Shown piece by piece: positions 46,916-55,011 of a DNA stretch of 58,770 nt. Location: contig JACQZR010000149.1 in NCBI GenBank assembly GCA_016213775.1, positions 1 through 58,770 of the forward strand. Reading direction: 5' to 3'. This DNA is from Acidobacteriota bacterium (lineage in GTDB: Bacteria > Acidobacteriota > Terriglobia > Bryobacterales > Bryobacteraceae). Under the pieces are notes generated by a model, which was given only the letters and a program-made list of their open reading frames with translations, was not told where the DNA came from and made no database searches. The translations under genes and the position numbers were made by a program. Within the stretch, counting starts at the first letter, position 1; the number at the start of each line of letters is the position of its first letter.

Positions 46916-48799
46916 ATGAGTCTGAAAATAACAACAATCACTTTGCTGGCTGTAGCCGCATTCGGACAACCGCCCGGCCCCCGGCCCTCTGGAGACGGCA
47001 TCTGGAACCGCAATGCCGCCTATGGAGAAGTCGAAACTTTTGACCCTTGCAACGGCCACCAGCCGGGCGAAGGCACTTACCACTACCACCTCAATCCGAT
47101 TTGCCTCCGCGCGCAACTGGATGACAACGTGGTGGCGGTCTCAACGGGACGCCTGGGCACGCAGTACGCCGAGAAGGCAGACGAATGGACCCACTCCAAA
47201 ATCCTCGGTTGGGCGCTGGACGGACATCCCATCTACGGACCTTACGGCTATTCCGATCCCATGGATCCGAAAAGCTCCATCAAGAGGGTGCAGCCGGGCT
47301 TTCAACTACGTTCCATCACACAGCGGCACACGCTTCCGGATTGGGCGCTCTCCTACCACGGACTCACCTCTCCGGTTCTGAACCGCACCCAATACGGGCC
47401 AGACGTGAGCGATCGCTTTCCACTCGGCCGATACGTGGAGGATTACGAATACGCACCCGGCACGGGAGACCTGGACCAGTACAATGGCCGCTTCACAGCT
47501 ACGCCAGAATACCCCGGCGGCACGTATGCCTATTTTGTGACGCTCTCCCCCGACGGGAATCCGGCCTTTCCCTATGTCATCAATGTCCAATTCTATGGCA
47601 CCGTTCCGGCAAGGTCGGCACCGGGTTCCGGGGCTGACTACTTCAGAGGCGGCGCTCTCACAGGCAGCCCCTCGGATGATCCGCGGCTTGCGAGTTGGTA
47701 TACGAAAGGTTCCCTGCGGAATGCGGTTGCCATCAGCGGCCTCGATCCATCTGCCGGAGCTTCCACCACGTGGCCTAAGCACGACACACCCTCGTTGGCG
47801 GACACCCAGCGAATTCAATATGACGCCCAAAACGTCTATGTAACCTCGAACGATCTGCCCAGCTATCCCATAGGCCCGTGGTTCGACGCAATGGGAACGT
47901 CAGGAGTTTTCATCAACTGGCCCGAGAGGCAGACTCTGAACGGCCGGTTTCCGCGCAACCCCTCACCGGCGGCCAATAAACCCAAAAGCGAGCTCGGCGC
48001 CGTGGGCATGTGGGTGAACGGCGTGGCGATCTTCAACACACTCGATGGCGCGAGCTACAGTTCGGGTTCGCGTGACGACGTTGGTGGCGGCCTGGTATCG
48101 CCCCGGGCGATGCATGTGTCCGCCGCCTCGGACGAGCGGGGACCCCTCGCCGCCGGTTCAATCGTCTCAGCCTATGCCGAACTAAGCGCAGTTCTGGCGA
48201 CAACGACAGAGAAAGCCAGCGGCGCCGTCTGGCCGCTCGACCTTGGCGGTACGACCGTTACGGTAGTGGATTCGGCGGGTGCGCGCCTGCGCGCTGCGGT
48301 CGGCTACGCCTCACCAACCCTCGTCACTTACCTCATGCCGCGGAACGCCGCAACGGGACCCGGCGAAGTGATTATCACATCCGGCGGCACAGCCGTGCGC
48401 GGTAAGGTCAACATCGTTCCCACCTATCCTGGAATCGCTCGCGCCAGAAACGACAACCTTGCCGCGGCGAATACGCTCACAGTCGACGGCGACAAGACGA
48501 TCACCGGATCAGCGGCGGCTACCAACGATGATGGCCAGGTCGTGCCCGCTCCGATCGATCTTTCCGCCGGCAGCGTCTATCTGACTTTGAATGGCACGGG
48601 GATCGGAACCGCAGCCGTTACTGCTACCATCGGAGACGTCGACGCCACTGTCGCCGAATCCGGACCCCAACCCGAGTCTCCAGGCCTCGATTACGTCACT
48701 CTGCTCATTCCGTCCAGCCTGGCCGGCAAAGGCAAACTCGACGTTGTCGTAACTGCGGCGGGCAAGCCCTCGAATCCGGTTTACATCGTAATCCAATGA
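46916..48799 (+). CDS. Exported YHYH-domain protein with TIGR03437 C-terminus
   Basis: The 627-residue protein has a signal peptide (SLKITTITLLAVAAFGQ). Its YHYH domain has the canonical motif GTYHYHLNPICL (about residues 57-68), then LDGHPIYGPYGYSDP and EDYEYAPGTGDLDQYNGRF. From about residue 390 it carries the Solibacter-type C-terminal domain TIGR03437 (GSIVSAYAELSAV, YLMPRNAATGPGEVIITSGG, DYVTLLIPSSLAGKGKLDVVV), frequent in Bryobacterales surface proteins. YHYH proteins have no established activity. The gene overlaps the next by four bases (ATGA), so the two products are made together. Confidence 0.85.
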   Translation: MSLKITTITLLAVAAFGQPPGPRPSGDGIWNRNAAYGEVETFDPCNGHQPGEGTYHYHLNPICLRAQLDDNVVAVSTGRLGTQYAEKADEWTHSKILGWALDGHPIYGPYGYSDPMDPKSSIKRVQPGFQLRSITQRHTLPDWALSYHGLTSPVLNRTQYGPDVSDRFPLGRYVEDYEYAPGTGDLDQYNGRFTATPEYPGGTYAYFVTLSPDGNPAFPYVINVQFYGTVPARSAPGSGADYFRGGALTGSPSDDPRLASWYTKGSLRNAVAISGLDPSAGASTTWPKHDTPSLADTQRIQYDAQNVYVTSNDLPSYPIGPWFDAMGTSGVFINWPERQTLNGRFPRNPSPAANKPKSELGAVGMWVNGVAIFNTLDGASYSSGSRDDVGGGLVSPRAMHVSAASDERGPLAAGSIVSAYAELSAVLATTTEKASGAVWPLDLGGTTVTVVDSAGARLRAAVGYASPTLVTYLMPRNAATGPGEVIITSGGTAVRGKVNIVPTYPGIARARNDNLAAANTLTVDGDKTITGSAAATNDDGQVVPAPIDLSAGSVYLTLNGTGIGTAAVTATIGDVDATVAESGPQPESPGLDYVTLLIPSSLAGKGKLDVVVTAAGKPSNPVYIVIQ

Positions 48800-50724
48800 G
48801 ACTCCCCCTGCTCTTATTGCCTCTCTGCTGTCGATTGGCCTTCGGCTCCGAGCCCGTCCTCACGGCATGGATCATGAGTCCATCGGGCAGCTCCGGAGCA
48901 TCCCGGTCGCAACCCGAGGTCCATTCTGTCTCTGTTAACGAGCAGTACGTCACCGTACATTCCGCCGGGCTGTCCGTGCGGTACTTCGGTCCATTACAAT
49001 CACGGCCGATTCCTGCCGCGGGCTTGCAGAGTTTTGAGTTCCGGATTCCGGTCCACCCGCGGCCGGAGAGCGGACGGCACACCCGCGTGCCGGCGGATGT
49101 GCTCGGGGTGTTCGTCAATGGCCTGCCGATCTACAACCAGTTCGAGTCGCTTTCCTGGAACGGAGCCAATGTCTGGCACTATGACGCCGTCGCCCAAAGA
49201 GATAACGGCACGCTCACCGCATCGGGCCGTGCACGAGCGGATCTGACTCATCCCAGCCCGCCGGGCCTACTGGATGAGCTGGCCCTTCCCGCTTCCCGGC
49301 ACTCACCGCTGATCGGATTCGCATTGGACGGATACCCGGTGTATGGTCCATGGGCGTATTCGGAAGCCGGAGGCGGAGGCGAGTTGCGGAGAATGCGTTC
49401 CAGCTATCGCCTCCGCTCCCAAGTCCAGCGCCGGAGCTGGCCCGGCGGGATCCAACTGATGCCCGCGCAATACGGCCCCGATCGAACCGCCGAACCTCCT
49501 GGGACGTTCGCGGAGGACTACGAGTACGTTCGTGGTTCCGGCGATCTTGACGAGCACAATGGCCGCTTTGCCGTCACCCCTGAATATCCGCAAGGCACCT
49601 ACGCCTATTTCCTGACCACCGACGCGGCGGGACGGCTCGCCTTTCCATACCTGATTGGCCCGACCTTCTACGGTCGTGTGACCCCCTCCGGCGAGCAGAC
49701 ATGGCACACACTCGCTTGCAAACGGATCCACCTTGCTGCCGATCTGCCACGAATCGAAGCAAACCGTCCGGTTCGCCTCCACCTTCAGGCGAAAGATGCA
49801 GCCGGCGATCCGATCCGCGCCTTCGAATACGTGCACGAACGCCCGATCCACCTCCTCATCGCCTCCGCGGATCTTGCGGACTTCGATCACATCCATCCGG
49901 AGCTGTCCCCGTCAGATTCGTTCGAGGTGACGTACACTTTCCGGCACGGCGGAAGATATCGGATTTGGGCGGATTATTCACTGCCAGGAGAAGCACCTCA
50001 TCTGGAGGAGTTCGATGTGACCGTCGAAGGCCCCGGCCGGCCGGAGCAGAAGCTTGTCGCCTCCGCTTCATTCACCCAGACTGCCGGCCCATTGATGGTG
50101 TCCCTCACGCTGCCGCCGCGGCTGTCTGCCGGCAAGGATGTTCCTTTCACTCTCAAGTTCACAGGCTCAACTGAGGCACTGGAGCCCTATCTTGGCGCGT
50201 GGGCGCACGTGATCGTGGTAGGCAGCGGCTGGCGAAGCTTCGCCCACGCCCATCCAATCGACTCGCCTGGTTTGGTTCACACGCACGCTCCCGCTGGTCC
50301 CCCGCCGGAGGAAGTGCGGATCTTGACCAGTTTCCCAACCCAAGGAATGTACAAACTCTGGGTGCAATTGCAGAACGCCGGACAAGTGCTTACGATTCCT
50401 TTCGTGCTGGCGGTGGGGCCGAAAGTCGCGGCTTCTACAAAGACAGTGCGCCCCATTCCAACAGGCGCCTATCGGATTCGCATTTCCCAACACGGATACA
50501 ATCCCGCGAATGTTACGATCCCCGCGAACGCCCCCGTTACGCTCGCTTTCACGCGCGAATCCACGCCAAACTGCGGCGCCGAGGTCGTGTTTCCGGCACT
50601 TGGTCTTCGGAAAGCGCTACCACTGGGAGAGACGGTGCTCATTCAGCTACCGGCGCAGACGGCCAGCGAAATCAGCTTCTCCTGCGGAATGGGAATGTAC
50701 CGCGCCATGATTGTTGCACGGTGA
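48796..50724 (+). CDS. Exported YHYH-like protein with YtkA-like domains and a C-terminal cupredoxin
   Basis: The 642-residue protein has a signal peptide and an N-terminal YHYH-family domain in which the YHYH motif itself is lost (ARADLTHPSPPG) but ALDGYPVYGPWAYSE and EDYEYVRGSGDLDEHNGRF remain. Two middle domains are of the YtkA/FixH-like type with His-Pro pairs (FDHIHPELSP; YLGAWAHVIVVG, FAHAHPID). The last about 90 residues are a cupredoxin of the kind linked to copper proteins: HGYNPANVTIPAN, CGAEVVFPALGL and the Met/Cys-rich ISFSCGMGMYRAMIV. Metal, probably copper, binding is inferred. It is translationally coupled to the first YHYH gene. Confidence 0.82.
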   Translation: MRLPLLLLPLCCRLAFGSEPVLTAWIMSPSGSSGASRSQPEVHSVSVNEQYVTVHSAGLSVRYFGPLQSRPIPAAGLQSFEFRIPVHPRPESGRHTRVPADVLGVFVNGLPIYNQFESLSWNGANVWHYDAVAQRDNGTLTASGRARADLTHPSPPGLLDELALPASRHSPLIGFALDGYPVYGPWAYSEAGGGGELRRMRSSYRLRSQVQRRSWPGGIQLMPAQYGPDRTAEPPGTFAEDYEYVRGSGDLDEHNGRFAVTPEYPQGTYAYFLTTDAAGRLAFPYLIGPTFYGRVTPSGEQTWHTLACKRIHLAADLPRIEANRPVRLHLQAKDAAGDPIRAFEYVHERPIHLLIASADLADFDHIHPELSPSDSFEVTYTFRHGGRYRIWADYSLPGEAPHLEEFDVTVEGPGRPEQKLVASASFTQTAGPLMVSLTLPPRLSAGKDVPFTLKFTGSTEALEPYLGAWAHVIVVGSGWRSFAHAHPIDSPGLVHTHAPAGPPPEEVRILTSFPTQGMYKLWVQLQNAGQVLTIPFVLAVGPKVAASTKTVRPIPTGAYRIRISQHGYNPANVTIPANAPVTLAFTRESTPNCGAEVVFPALGLRKALPLGETVLIQLPAQTASEISFSCGMGMYRAMIVAR

Positions 50725-50737
50725 ACCCGCATGTGTT

Positions 50738-52645
50738 TCACTTCAATTCGAGATCCACAACCTGAATGGAGTAGCCGGGCATTGTGTGTTCCACGCGCTG
50801 GCTGTTCACGGTCATGTTGGATGTCACTGGCACAACGCGCTCCGGATGCGCGATGGTGTTGGTGGCGCGCAGCGAATCCGCTTTCAGAGTCTGGATGCGG
50901 GCCTTGTGTGCCCCATTGCTCAGACCCTTCAAGTCCAATGTGACTGGCTGCGGTAACGACGTTCCATTCACCAGCTTCAAGCAAAGCCGATTCGCTTTTT
51001 GAGAGACCGTGGCCGAATAGAAGAACTTCTCTCCGGCGCCGCCGGCAGCGGTTTCGACCGTGTGGTCACCGAGGCAGGAACTGAACAGCACCTGCGCGTA
51101 GTACGGCGGGGAACCATAGCTGTTCATCGCGTCGTAGCCGATCAGGTCGGAACTCCATTGCATGCCGCCAGGATTGACGTTGACAAACAGCGGCGCATAG
51201 GCGGCCATGATGACGATGTCGCTGTTGCGCTCCAGTCCTGTGAGGAAGGCGGCATCGCCGAGAGCTGCACCCAGGTTCGGGGTCGGGCTGCCTTCGCGCG
51301 TCGCCCATTCGCCGACGAAGATCCTGGGACCCTTGCGGTCGGCTGAGTCGTAGCGTTTCGCCAACTGGAACATCTCCTGATGCCGCTTGTAGTAATGGTC
51401 GTCCAGGACGTCGGCGGCTGTGTCCTTGACCGGCATCGAAGCGATCACCTGGATTTTGGGATACCTTGCTTTGATCGCTTTGTAGTATTGCGCAAAGCGG
51501 CCTTCGTAGGAACGCGACCGGTCGAAATTGTCCTCGTTGCCGACCTCGACATAACGCACAGGGAACGGCGCGGGATGGCCGTGACTGGCGCGCAGCGCGC
51601 CGCCCTTGGTTTCCGGCCCTCCGGTAACGTACTCGATCTCGTCGAGGGCCTCCTCCACGTAAGGCTCGAGGTCGGGCCCGGGCTTCACCACCTGGCCTCC
51701 TAGCGAGTAGCCGGCAAAGACTCCGAGGAGAGGCTCCATGTTGAGGTCCTCGCACCAAAGCAGGAATTCGAGCAGCCCCATGCCGTCCGAGGAATGGTAA
51801 TTCCACGTGGTGGGATGAGTGGGGCGGTCCACCAGTGGGCCGACGGTCTTTCTCCAATCAAAGCGCGTCTCGATTCGATTCCCTTCGAGATAGTTTCCAC
51901 CGGGAAAGCGCAGGAACTTGGGGCGCATGGCCGCCAGCTTCTCCATGATGTCGATACGGTTGCCGTTGGGCCGTCCTTTGTATGTTGGAGGGAAAAGAGA
52001 GACTAACTGGAGCCACACGGTGGCAGGCCGGTCCACCATCAACTCGAAATGGTTTTCCGCGGAGGCGGCTACACTGCCGGAGAGCATTTCGTAGTTGTAC
52101 TCTTTCCATTCGGTTCCGTTGATGGTGATGGATGAGGTAGCCAGGATCTTCTGCGAATGGTCCGAGACCAGCGCCAGCTTCAGCGGCAGCGGATCCGCTG
52201 ACTTGCTCTTTGCGAAGAGAGAGCCCTTGTAGCGTGTGTTCGGGCGCACGGCGATGCCCCAGTAGCCCTCGTTGAGAAGCGCTGCCGGACCGTCCGTGCT
52301 GGCGGAGGCGACCTCGATTCTCGCGCTCCTCGTCAGCGCCTTGGACGGGCCGGTGCTGGCGTCGATGGACATTTTCGCCGCGGAGTTTCCCTTCTCGATG
52401 AGAAACCAGTTGAGAATGCCGGTCCAGTCCGAGCGGAAGGTACGGTTGCGGATCAACTCCGCGTAGAGTCCTCCGTCGTAGGAGTAATTGATCTCCTCCG
52501 TCATCAGGCCATAGAGGATCGGGCTGACGGCTGTTTTGGGTTGATTCAATTGAATGGTAAGTGTCGCCGGGGATTGTGCCCACAGACCGGCCGAGGTGAG
52601 TGAACTCATTACGAGGGCAATGCGCAAGATACGATGAGTCGTCAT
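50738..52645 (-). CDS. Exported GH51-like alpha-L-arabinofuranosidase
   Basis: The 635-residue protein begins [24 protein letters not shown], a signal peptide. GH51 features are [40 protein letters not shown], the acid/base Glu in [12 protein letters not shown] and the nucleophile region VGEWATREG. It should release arabinose from arabinoxylan or arabinan side chains. The start ATG overlaps the GH95 stop (ATGA), so it is translationally coupled and last in the operon. A carbohydrate-binding-like domain lies between about 110 and 230. Confidence 0.85.
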
Positions 52646-55011
52646 ATGTTTGGTTCGAATTCGAAGGTGTAGGTGCTCTTCGCTTTGACACGCAGCCGGG
52701 ACGTCGTTGCGGAGACCGGCTCGGCGCGAACCGTCTGCTTGTTTTCGAGGATTGTCTTGATTCGCACACCGGGCGGGAACCGCAACGTGTGGACGCCGCC
52801 GGATGACGGCCGCAAAGAAGCGCCAGCCGGCAATCCGCCGCGCCACGTAAGGTCAACCTCCAAGCCACCGCGCGCGCGAAGCCCGGTTACCTTTCCGTCA
52901 CTCCAGGCGCGCGGCAAAGCCGGCAGCAGATTGATTTCACCGGAATGGCTTTGCAGCAACATTTCTGCAATCGCGGCGGTCGCGCCAAGGTTCCCGTCGA
53001 TCTGAAACGGCGGGTGATTGTCGAAGAGGTTTTCCAAGGTGGACTTGCTCAACAGGGCATTGAGGTTCTCGTATGCCAGGCCGGCGTCGCCGAGTCGGGT
53101 CCAGAAGGTGATGATCCAGGCGCGGCTCCATCCGGTATGCCCGCCGCCGTTTGCCAGACGCCGGTCGAGGGTGACCCGGGCGGCACGGGCCAGATCCGGA
53201 GTGGCGTGCGGTCTGATCCTGTCGCCGGGAAAGAGCGCGAACAGGTGGGAAATATGCCGGTGCCCCGGCTCCACCTCGTCGTAATCCTCGACCCATTCCT
53301 GGATCTGGCCATGTTTGCCGATCTTCAACGGGGCAAGCTTGTCGCGGGCTGCAGTCAATTCTTGCCGGAACTGCTTGTCGATGCCGAGAGTCTCGCTGGC
53401 CTGGATCAGCCTCTCAAAGAGGGCGCGGAGAATCTCCGTGTCCATGGTAGGCCCCATACACAGGACCGCCTTCTCGCCGGACGGCAGCCGGTATTCGTTC
53501 TCCGGTGAAGTGGATGGTCCGGTCAACAGGATCCCGCTGCTGTCCGGCACAAGGTAATCGAGGAAGAACTGCGCGGCTTCCTTCATTACTGGATAGGCGC
53601 GGGTGGCGAGAAACTTCCGATCCTGAGTGAACTCGTAATGATCAGCCAGATGCAAAGCAAGCCATGCGGCGCCCATAGGCCAGACACCCCAGCGTGCGCC
53701 ATCGATCGGCACGGCGTGGCCCCATAGGTCGGTGTTGTGGTGGAGGACAAACCCGCGGGCTCCGTAATAGGATTTCGCCACGCGCCGGCCGTCCTCGCGC
53801 GCGAGGTCGATGAGGTCGAACAACGGCTCGTGCAGTTCGGAGAGGTTACATGTTTCCGCGGGCCAGTAATTCATTTCCGTATTAATGTTGATGGTGTACT
53901 TACTGCCCCATGCAGGCCGCAGACTATCGTTCCATTTGCCCTGGAGATTGGCCGCCAGGCTTCCGGGCCTGCTGCTCGCGATCAGCAGGTACCTTCCGTA
54001 ATGGAAATAGAGAGCCAGCAGGTCGTTGTCCGTCGCGCCTTGCTGAACTTTCCGCAACCGCTCATCCGTCGGCAAGGCGCGGGCGGAGGGGTCCACCGGG
54101 AGCTCCAGTTGCATTCTGCGAAACAGCCGCTGATGGTCCTTGATATGGCCGGCCTTCAACGCGTCCACAGCCCGTGAGGCCGTGGCCAGATCCCGCGCGC
54201 ACGACGCGGCCAAATCGGGGCCGCGATAGTCCGTCGCTGCGACAAGCAGCAGCGTCACGCTGTCGGCAGCCCGGACCAACAGGAGGCCGCCGGAGCTCTC
54301 CATGTGCCCACCGGAGGCGATTGCCTTCACCTCCGCGCGGAAGCGAACGCCGGTGTTTCGCTCTCCGGGCGCGGCCTTCGGCAGGGCCTGCCCTGTGAGG
54401 ATGAGGCGGCCAGCGGCTGATTCTGATGTCGCGTCGGCCAGCCTGGTGATGTTGGCGCGGAATGAAATGCTGCCGGGCTTGTCGGCGCTAAGGTGCATGA
54501 CTATGGATCGCGCCGGGTAGGAGGCAAACACTTCCCGGCGGTAGTTGACGCCCTTGGCTTGGTAGCGGACCGAGGCGATTGCGGTATCAAGGTCAAGCTC
54601 GCGGCGATATTGCGAATGTTCCTCGACGCCATCGAATTCGAGTACCAGATCGCCGAGAGTCTGGTAGACGGGAAGCGCGCGGGGGACACTGATCATCGCA
54701 CGGTCAGCCAGAGCTTGCGCCTGGGCGGGGTGTCCCTGCTGCAGCAGGCGGCGGATCTCCGGCACGGCTTTGGCCGCTTCGGGGTTTGAGCGGTCTCGTT
54801 TTTCGCCAGTCCATACGGTATCTTCGTTGAGCTGCAGGCGCTCGGTTCCGACGCCGCCGAAGACCATGGCGGCCAACCGTCCGTTGCCGACCGGCAGCGC
54901 CTGCGTCCACGTGGTGGCCGGCTGGCGATACCAAAGCCGGAGGGCGCTTTCATCGGCAGCGAACATTCCAGTGGCGCACCCGGCCAGGCAAAGGATCAAT
55001 CTTCGTCGCAC
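52642..55011 (-). CDS. Exported GH95 alpha-L-fucosidase-like enzyme
   Basis: The product (789 residues from GTG 55011) has a signal-like start ([17 protein letters not shown]) and then the GH95 N-terminal domain: [32 protein letters not shown]. The catalytic (alpha/alpha)6 region is also clear: [59 protein letters not shown] and [18 protein letters not shown]95 inverting enzymes cleave alpha-1,2-linked L-fucose or L-galactose. The ATG-initiated longer frame overlaps the small gene upstream and was rejected; the exact start is uncertain. It is the second gene of a three-gene operon. Confidence 0.9.

Follow-up and report, generated by a model that had tools for sequence, protein, structure and literature searches.

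The present work concerns a pair of overlapping genes, here called P1 and P2, which lie on the forward strand of a 58,770-nucleotide stretch of DNA (the window; contig JACQZR010000149.1 of assembly GCA_016213775.1) from an Acidobacteriota bacterium of the Bryobacteraceae, and which encode two proteins related to the YHYH family (PF14240). Both genes are complete open reading frames (ORFs), and the N-termini of both products, judged by eye, resemble signal peptides, which suggests that P1 and P2 are exported. Proteins of the P1 kind are referred to below as A-type and those of the P2 kind as B-type. The features of the pair, in window coordinates, are as follows.

46916..48799, forward strand: P1 (A-type), presumably exported YHYH protein of 627 amino acids, in which a circularly permuted YHYH domain precedes a TIGR03437 domain at the C-terminus
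46991..47611, forward strand: C-module of P1, residues 26-232, matching PF14240 profile positions 48-183; the second part of the canonical domain, placed first
47057..47089, forward strand: H48 to H58 of P1, including Y55-H-Y-H58; putative metal site, from conservation and PMC7824862
47219..47221, forward strand: D102 of P1, presumed Asp of the predicted metal site
47654..48103, forward strand: N-module of P1, residues 247-396, PF14240 profile positions 3-44 and sequence upstream of them; the first part of the canonical domain, placed second
48116..48796, forward strand: TIGR03437 domain of P1, residues 401-627, from a profile match
48796..48799, forward strand: ATGA, in which the start of P2 overlaps the stop of P1, from the ORF reading
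48796..50724, forward strand: P2 (B-type), presumably exported pseudo-YHYH protein of 642 amino acids, carrying a CupA-like cupredoxin behind its two HxHP domains
48904..49686, forward strand: YHYH domain of P2, residues 37-297, in canonical N-to-C order, with the YHYH segment deleted
49888..49899, forward strand: HIHP of the first HxHP domain of P2, residues 365-368; P368 kept, like both His, in 34/34 B-type proteins
50245..50256, forward strand: HAHP of the second HxHP domain of P2, residues 484-487; both His kept in 34/34, P487 in 33/34
50428..50721, forward strand: CupA-like cupredoxin domain of P2, residues 545-642, from profile and CupA alignment
50572..50574, forward strand: C593 of P2, aligned with CupA C74
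50683..50697, forward strand: CGMGM of P2, residues 630-634 (C630, M632, M634), aligned with CupA C111, M113 and M115

The original prediction, made from this DNA alone, had described two adjacent YHYH genes sharing an ATGA, and this is what is seen at 48796-48799: both products match PF14240, P1 with an E value of 3.2e-40 and 138.6 bits (curated cut-off 25) in two stretches, the best of which covers profile positions 47-183 at residues 28-211, and P2 with an E value of 4.3e-38 and 131.7 bits (cut-off 25) in a match that covers profile positions 1-184 at residues 81-277. These are the only matches to PF14240 at E<=0.001 in the window's 11 Mb genome. The first gene, as had also been described, keeps the YHYH motif, at residues 55-58, and ends in a TIGR03437 domain (residues 401-627; E 2.2e-21, 76.6 bits against a curated cut-off of 29.05). 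The second gene has lost the YHYH residues, and the loss extends to the whole YHYH segment, which is gapped in the P2 alignment; near its end P2 matches Cupredoxin_1 (residues 557-640; E 3.3e-14).

The two parts of the YHYH domain of P1 are arranged in an order that the original prediction did not notice. It is well supported by profile matches and alignments that the domain is circularly permuted, the C-terminal part of the canonical domain coming first, the N-terminal part second and the TIGR03437 domain last. Searched alone, residues 26-232 match PF14240 profile positions 48-183 (E 1.1e-36) and residues 299-396 match positions 3-44 (E 0.015, under the curated cut-off); the match to the profile is linear, N to C, in P2 and out of order in P1. 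In an alignment with L134, an unpermuted relative from another family of the phylum, P1 24-229 pairs with L134 142-320 (51% identity, 3e-67) and P1 247-388 pairs with L134 17-140 (34% identity, 1e-15), and the alignment of a second protein, L074, to P1 agrees with this picture. The break lies immediately ahead of the conserved GDGIW. A search of the genome contigs with P1 returned two distant canonical relatives only.

When L134 and L074 were each split and their halves searched separately, the C-then-N order, with both halves present, was found in 46/46 A-type proteins including P1. As the swapped order had been a requirement in the selection of 41 of these 46, a second count dropped this requirement. 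Among ORFs of the fetched loci whose C-module matches P1 at E<1e-50, 51 of 53 have the C-module first, the other two being the unpermuted L134 and L090, which is cut by a contig end; among weaker C-module matches (1e-50 to 1e-20, n=42), the N-module comes first in 25, gives no match in 17 and follows the C-module in none. The order in B-type proteins is canonical, 36 of 37 matching L134, each in one collinear stretch over both halves. In the viral set taken together with loci L032 and L033, 85 ORFs have matches, 17 with the halves together, 28 with the halves apart and the N half first, and 40 with a single half; swapped halves occur in 0/45 of the ORFs that carry both. Long phage proteins (L174, L175, L215 and others on phage contigs) hold the YHYH halves about 300 residues apart, N half first. 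Three short A-type proteins (L083:7554-8819, L084:6985-8265, L128:7484-8722) have the swapped order and no TIGR03437 match, and in two of them, L083 and L084, the C-terminus is a Gly/Pro-rich tail. The possibility that P1 holds the remnants of a tandem duplication was considered and rejected, no second copy of either half being present in the A-type proteins listed. P1 offers a natural circular permutation, and this shows the YHYH domain to be made of two separable halves. The predicted model of the P2 YHYH domain is of middling quality, with a predicted local distance difference test score (pLDDT) of 66.7 and a predicted template modelling score of 0.68; compared with the PDB it returned nothing at E<=0.001 (best 1.9), and compared with a viral library it returned 16 matches at E<=0.001, comprising six YHYH-named proteins, one 'structural protein' and nine unnamed proteins.

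The second difference between the two proteins concerns the metal site. YHYH domains are known from bacteria, phages and diatoms, and the function published for them, in the accessible parts of the literature, consists of predictions only; for phage YHYH domains a Zn site formed by three His and one Asp and a metal-dependent hydrolase activity have been predicted (PMC7824862, accessible part). The earlier statement that YHYH proteins have no assigned function has to be qualified in view of this prediction. In the literature found on YHYH proteins, in its accessible parts and with subscription papers largely outside the search, copper partners and permutation are unmentioned, and a search under the same limit, in which absence is unproven, found no paper on Bryobacterales, copper and cupredoxins together. 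The residues W30, D43, C45, H48, H56, H58, C63 and D102 are invariant in A-type proteins, each in 46/46, and D102 presumably corresponds to the Asp of the predicted site. By comparison, none of the 36 B-type proteins that have the module (0/36) has His at any of the three metal-site columns, all 36 have gaps at columns 55, 56, 58, 63 and 65, and all 36 keep the core residues D102, R137, G161, D176, D187, N190 and Y206; a further B-type protein, L089 of genome G097, has no match for the YHYH C-module. The best reading of these alignments is that P2 is a paralogous pseudo-enzyme of P1 from which the metal-binding segment has been deleted, a relation which, like the permutation, is new with respect to the original prediction. 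In a tree of 57 core sequences obtained by a short search, a single change suffices for A and likewise for B. Three canonical His-bearing proteins and one phage sequence join A (support 92), and B stands apart (91); 28 of the 54 inner branches of this tree are open, and the support for A itself is 20. In a divergent YHYH subfamily of the same taxonomic order (L075, L076, L079) the YHYH motif occurs twice and the end of the protein contains Cys.

P2 carries a tail with two further kinds of candidate metal ligand. The best solved relative of P2 is CupA of Streptococcus pneumoniae (PDB 2mry, 4f2e). The cupredoxin domain alone aligns with CupA at E 1.3e-12, with all four ligand residues aligned (2mry), so that C593 and the CGMGM segment supply the two Cys and two Met (C593, C630, M632, M634) whose counterparts are described as Cu(I) ligands of CupA in the accessible part of PMC5646241; the C-terminal cupredoxin with Cys/Met ligands that had been proposed is thus corroborated. 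All four residues are kept in 29 of 34 B-type proteins. Contig ends truncate two of the remaining five, and a third stops at about 135 bases from one; in a fourth the cupredoxin lies in a separate overlapping ORF, and the fifth is without the first Cys. The two HxHP-type domains are likewise present as described, at 365-368 and 484-487, and H365, H367, H484 and H486 are each found in 34/34 B-type proteins. The label 'YtkA-like' given to these domains is not backed by the sequence, in that neither HxHP piece matches Pfam YtkA at E<=10 in a search whose HMMER filters drop most weak matches, and no Pfam family covers the HxHP regions at E<=0.01 in 29 B-type proteins. Judged from its ligand residues and its homology, P2 probably binds copper.

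The distribution of the two types was surveyed across 257 genomes of the window's order, 61 of which have a PF14240 match. The A and B alignments were used to search the 42 of these 61 that had A-like or B-like matches or were of particular interest, namely the genome of the window, G244 and 40 members of the window's family; the 19 which have only other kinds of PF14240 match were left out. A-type genes occur in 39, B-type genes in 35 and both in 33 of the 257 genomes, which is 33 of the 41 having either (Fisher test 4e-33, kinship ignored). The two are neighbours in 25 of the 33 genomes with both, the A-type gene lying upstream on the same strand in 25/25. In 21 of these pairs the gap, measured from the first possible start codons, runs from -26 to +16 bases, seven gaps being -4; the remaining pairs are those of G149, with 1 base between the genes and B truncated at a contig end, of G092, with a distance of about 0.6 kb, and of G015 and G103, in which the start of B is unresolved. 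Outside the order, a full A-type gene is found in 7 of 147 sampled genomes of G545's class, with a B-type gene next in each; these include G530, where the B-type gene follows after 2.5 kb, and G902 and G896, where B is cut by a contig end. A further genome, G650, has the pair with a -4 overlap. Altogether, and with the window's genome counted, adjacency is seen in 33 genomes, at a distance of 0.6 kb in one and of 2.5 kb in another, and the division of motif and copper domain between two partners is supported as a conserved two-protein module. The observations that would have spoken against the original prediction, separate genes in relatives or a cupredoxin without conserved ligands in homologues, were thus not made. 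To call the partners obligatorily co-made was too strong, because A and B lie on different contigs in 8 of the 33 genomes with both (G006, G007, G009, G013, G016, G019, G021, G153).

The distances between A-type proteins and between B-type proteins correlate beyond what rpoB accounts for (partial r 0.56, p 2e-4; 21 of the 33 genomes, those with usable rpoB), and in seven of the eight unlinked genomes the partial r is 0.66, a value with 36 of 5040 permutations. This correlation could also be explained by shared transfer before separation of the genes. Loci L034 and L035 have two tandem A-type genes ahead of one B-type gene.

The surroundings of the tail and of the pair bear on whether copper is involved. 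A tail like P2 residues 300-642, without YHYH, is found in other families of the phylum (L129-L132 and L135-L140 among others). Efflux-type genes (RND, outer-membrane efflux or P1B ATPase) are present in 10/10 of the stand-alone full-tail loci examined, a count to be read with the fact that three of the ten supplied the efflux probes and that L137 has an outer-membrane efflux match only; a CusA/CzcA-family pump and copper-type P1B ATPases are among the genes of these loci. The occurrence of the tail alone in efflux-type loci favours copper. In family f24 (119 genomes), YHYH-domain matches at E<=1e-30 occur in two genomes, G987 and G959. In G987 (L227:2582-5584) only 33 bases separate an HxHP-cupredoxin gene from the canonical YHYH gene downstream of it, whose product has the His triad and is much extended at its C-terminus, and in G959 an HxHP-cupredoxin gene and a YHYH gene lie at the ends of different contigs, compatible with the order in G987. 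The adjacency in G987, a separate-gene version that is also new here, means that a link between a His-bearing YHYH protein and a copper tail exists without the fusion seen in P2, in one genome.

Copper genes near the pair itself, which the original prediction had proposed to look for, did not turn up: among the A/B loci probed, only L061, an unlinked B-type locus, had efflux-gene neighbours. Apart from L061, the eight efflux probes (loci L225 and L227-L232 lay outside this probing) matched one other locus, L088, and the P1B ATPase probe had no match in L034-L093 or in the window. A copper-resistance operon was accordingly rejected as an account of the pair, there being no efflux genes around the linked pairs probed. 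Judged by eye, the families that recur next to the pair resemble a TonB-receptor type in 15 loci and response regulators in 7, and further families recur in 4-5 loci. In the window, a converging minus-strand ORF (50738-52846) has its stop 13 bases beyond the end of P2 (window 50724-50738). Elsewhere in the window's genome (contig C49, L133:9000-9869) there is a stand-alone protein with a heavy-metal-binding domain (HMBD) and an HxHP domain; the 20 kb fetched around it contained no YHYH or efflux-probe match.

The explanation favoured here, tentatively, is that the two exported proteins work together as a copper module, P1 being an active YHYH metalloprotein and P2 its copper-binding pseudo-enzyme partner. 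Its starting points can be read directly in the sequences: the domains, the permutation, the retention of the site in one partner and its loss in the other, the co-occurrence, and the CupA-type residues. P1 would be the active partner, a YHYH metalloprotein with H48, H56, H58 and D102 as its site and with its permuted domain tied to TIGR03437. P2 would be its paralogue in normal order, with the metal segment deleted, extended by the pair of HxHP domains and by a Cu(I) domain of the CupA type. The tail of P2 would bind copper outside the cytoplasm, P2 would dock on P1 through the YHYH domain that they share, and P2 might then supply copper to P1, or mature or protect it, in the fashion of CCS and SOD1. 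The parts of this proposal are not equally probable: contact between P1 and P2 is marginally the likelier case, transfer of copper from P2 to P1 is doubtful, and a shade more doubtful again is that the pair is an independently evolved bacterial, extracytoplasmic counterpart of CCS and SOD1, in which the chaperone would be an inactivated copy of its client joined to a CupA-type Cu(I) domain and the client a permuted YHYH enzyme. If the last were true, the permuted YHYH enzyme would add a new type to the secreted copper enzymes. The pair connects the YHYH domain with copper handling from several sides, and would represent an enzyme-pseudoenzyme pair whose dead copy bears putative metal-delivery parts. 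Of the two-component metal module suggested originally, the conserved pair and the split between motif and copper domain survive, and the nearby copper genes do not.

A number of observations weigh against the favoured explanation. The metal predicted for the YHYH family is Zn (PMC7824862, accessible part), and copper in P1 is a proposal only. Near the linked pairs probed, there was no match for P1B ATPase, MerR or RND; the 10 efflux-type loci hold no YHYH partner of the tail; and the 5.6 kb stretch of G987 that holds both genes shows no efflux gene by eye. A-type genes occur alone in six genomes (G023, G052, G087, G088, G089, G191), lying at a contig end in G052, G087 and G088, and B-type genes occur alone in two (G017, G213); outside the order, G666 and G457 have the A-type gene only. 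Cupredoxin_1 finds a match in 26 of the 29 B-type proteins scanned and none in the other three, and the B-type protein of G650 is without the cupredoxin. The predicted model of P1 is poor (pLDDT 52.6), the N-module, a part without alignment rows, having failed.

An alternative that is unlikely, and that survives best among those considered, makes P1 a Zn-dependent hydrolase of cell wall or polysaccharide and P2 a non-catalytic stabilizer or regulator whose tail serves to sense or buffer copper without passing any to P1. The site and hydrolase role predicted for phage YHYH domains (PMC7824862, accessible part), the completeness of the site in A-type proteins with none of the three His in B-type proteins, and the precedent of a gene pair, MetCa/MetCb, that needs a metal-free paralogue for activity (PMC11271267, accessible part) are all in keeping with it, but it leaves unexplained both the CupA-type Cu(I) domain on the pseudo-subunit in 26 of 29 relatives scanned and the adjacency of HxHP-cupredoxin and His-bearing YHYH genes in G987. 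Less likely still is that P2 traps copper at the surface or in the periplasm and that both YHYH domains bind a ligand or the wall, with P1 as an anchor through TIGR03437: the homology of the P2 tail to stand-alone proteins of efflux-type loci fits such a trap, yet efflux genes do not accompany the pair, and the whole metal site is strictly kept in P1-type proteins (46/46), a retention which suggests more than anchoring for P1. That the halves of P1 rebuild no single domain, the N-module being a leftover of tandem duplication or the halves pairing with the complementary halves of P2 in a swapped heterodimer, is improbable. In its favour are the stronger divergence of the N-module, which shares 34% identity with L134 where the C-module shares 51%, the long separation of the halves tolerated in 28 of 45 viral-set ORFs with both, and the predicted model of P1, which leaves its fold unconfirmed. 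Against it, the halves complement each other along the profile (48-183 and 3-44) and are both present in 46/46 A-type proteins, invariant residues lie in both, and neither has a second copy in the A-type proteins listed.

The favoured explanation can be placed beside several known systems. With the canonical members of PF14240 (L134, L074 and phage proteins), P1 and P2 share the profile match and P1 the conserved His and Asp, and from them P1 differs in its swapped halves and P2 in having no motif segment. The stand-alone HxHP-cupredoxin proteins (L129-L132, L135-L140) have the architecture of the P2 tail, with efflux genes nearby and no YHYH domain found. CupA, which is membrane-anchored and passes copper to CopA (PMC7558416, accessible part), has the cupredoxin domain and the four ligands in common with P2; unlike CupA, P2 has a signal-peptide-like start, a fused pseudo-YHYH domain and HxHP domains, and no CopA gene was found beside it. 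In the metformin hydrolase MetCa/MetCb, of the arginase family, neighbouring genes encode an active metalloenzyme and a metal-free paralogue (PMC11271267); P2 carries added, probably metal-binding domains, of which none is mentioned for MetCb in the accessible part of that source. The evidence is compatible with a CCS-like transfer and, as in MetCa/MetCb, with a pair that works without transfer. CCS is the nearest working analogue: a SOD1-like domain without a copper site docks on SOD1 to form a heterodimer, and another domain binds copper (PMC13017621, accessible part). P1 and P2 belong to families unrelated to those of CCS and SOD1 and are presumably exported, and docking and transfer are proposed for them by analogy; the likeness to CCS is that P2, judged by homology and ligand identity, combines a client-like domain without the metal site and a separate domain that would bind copper.

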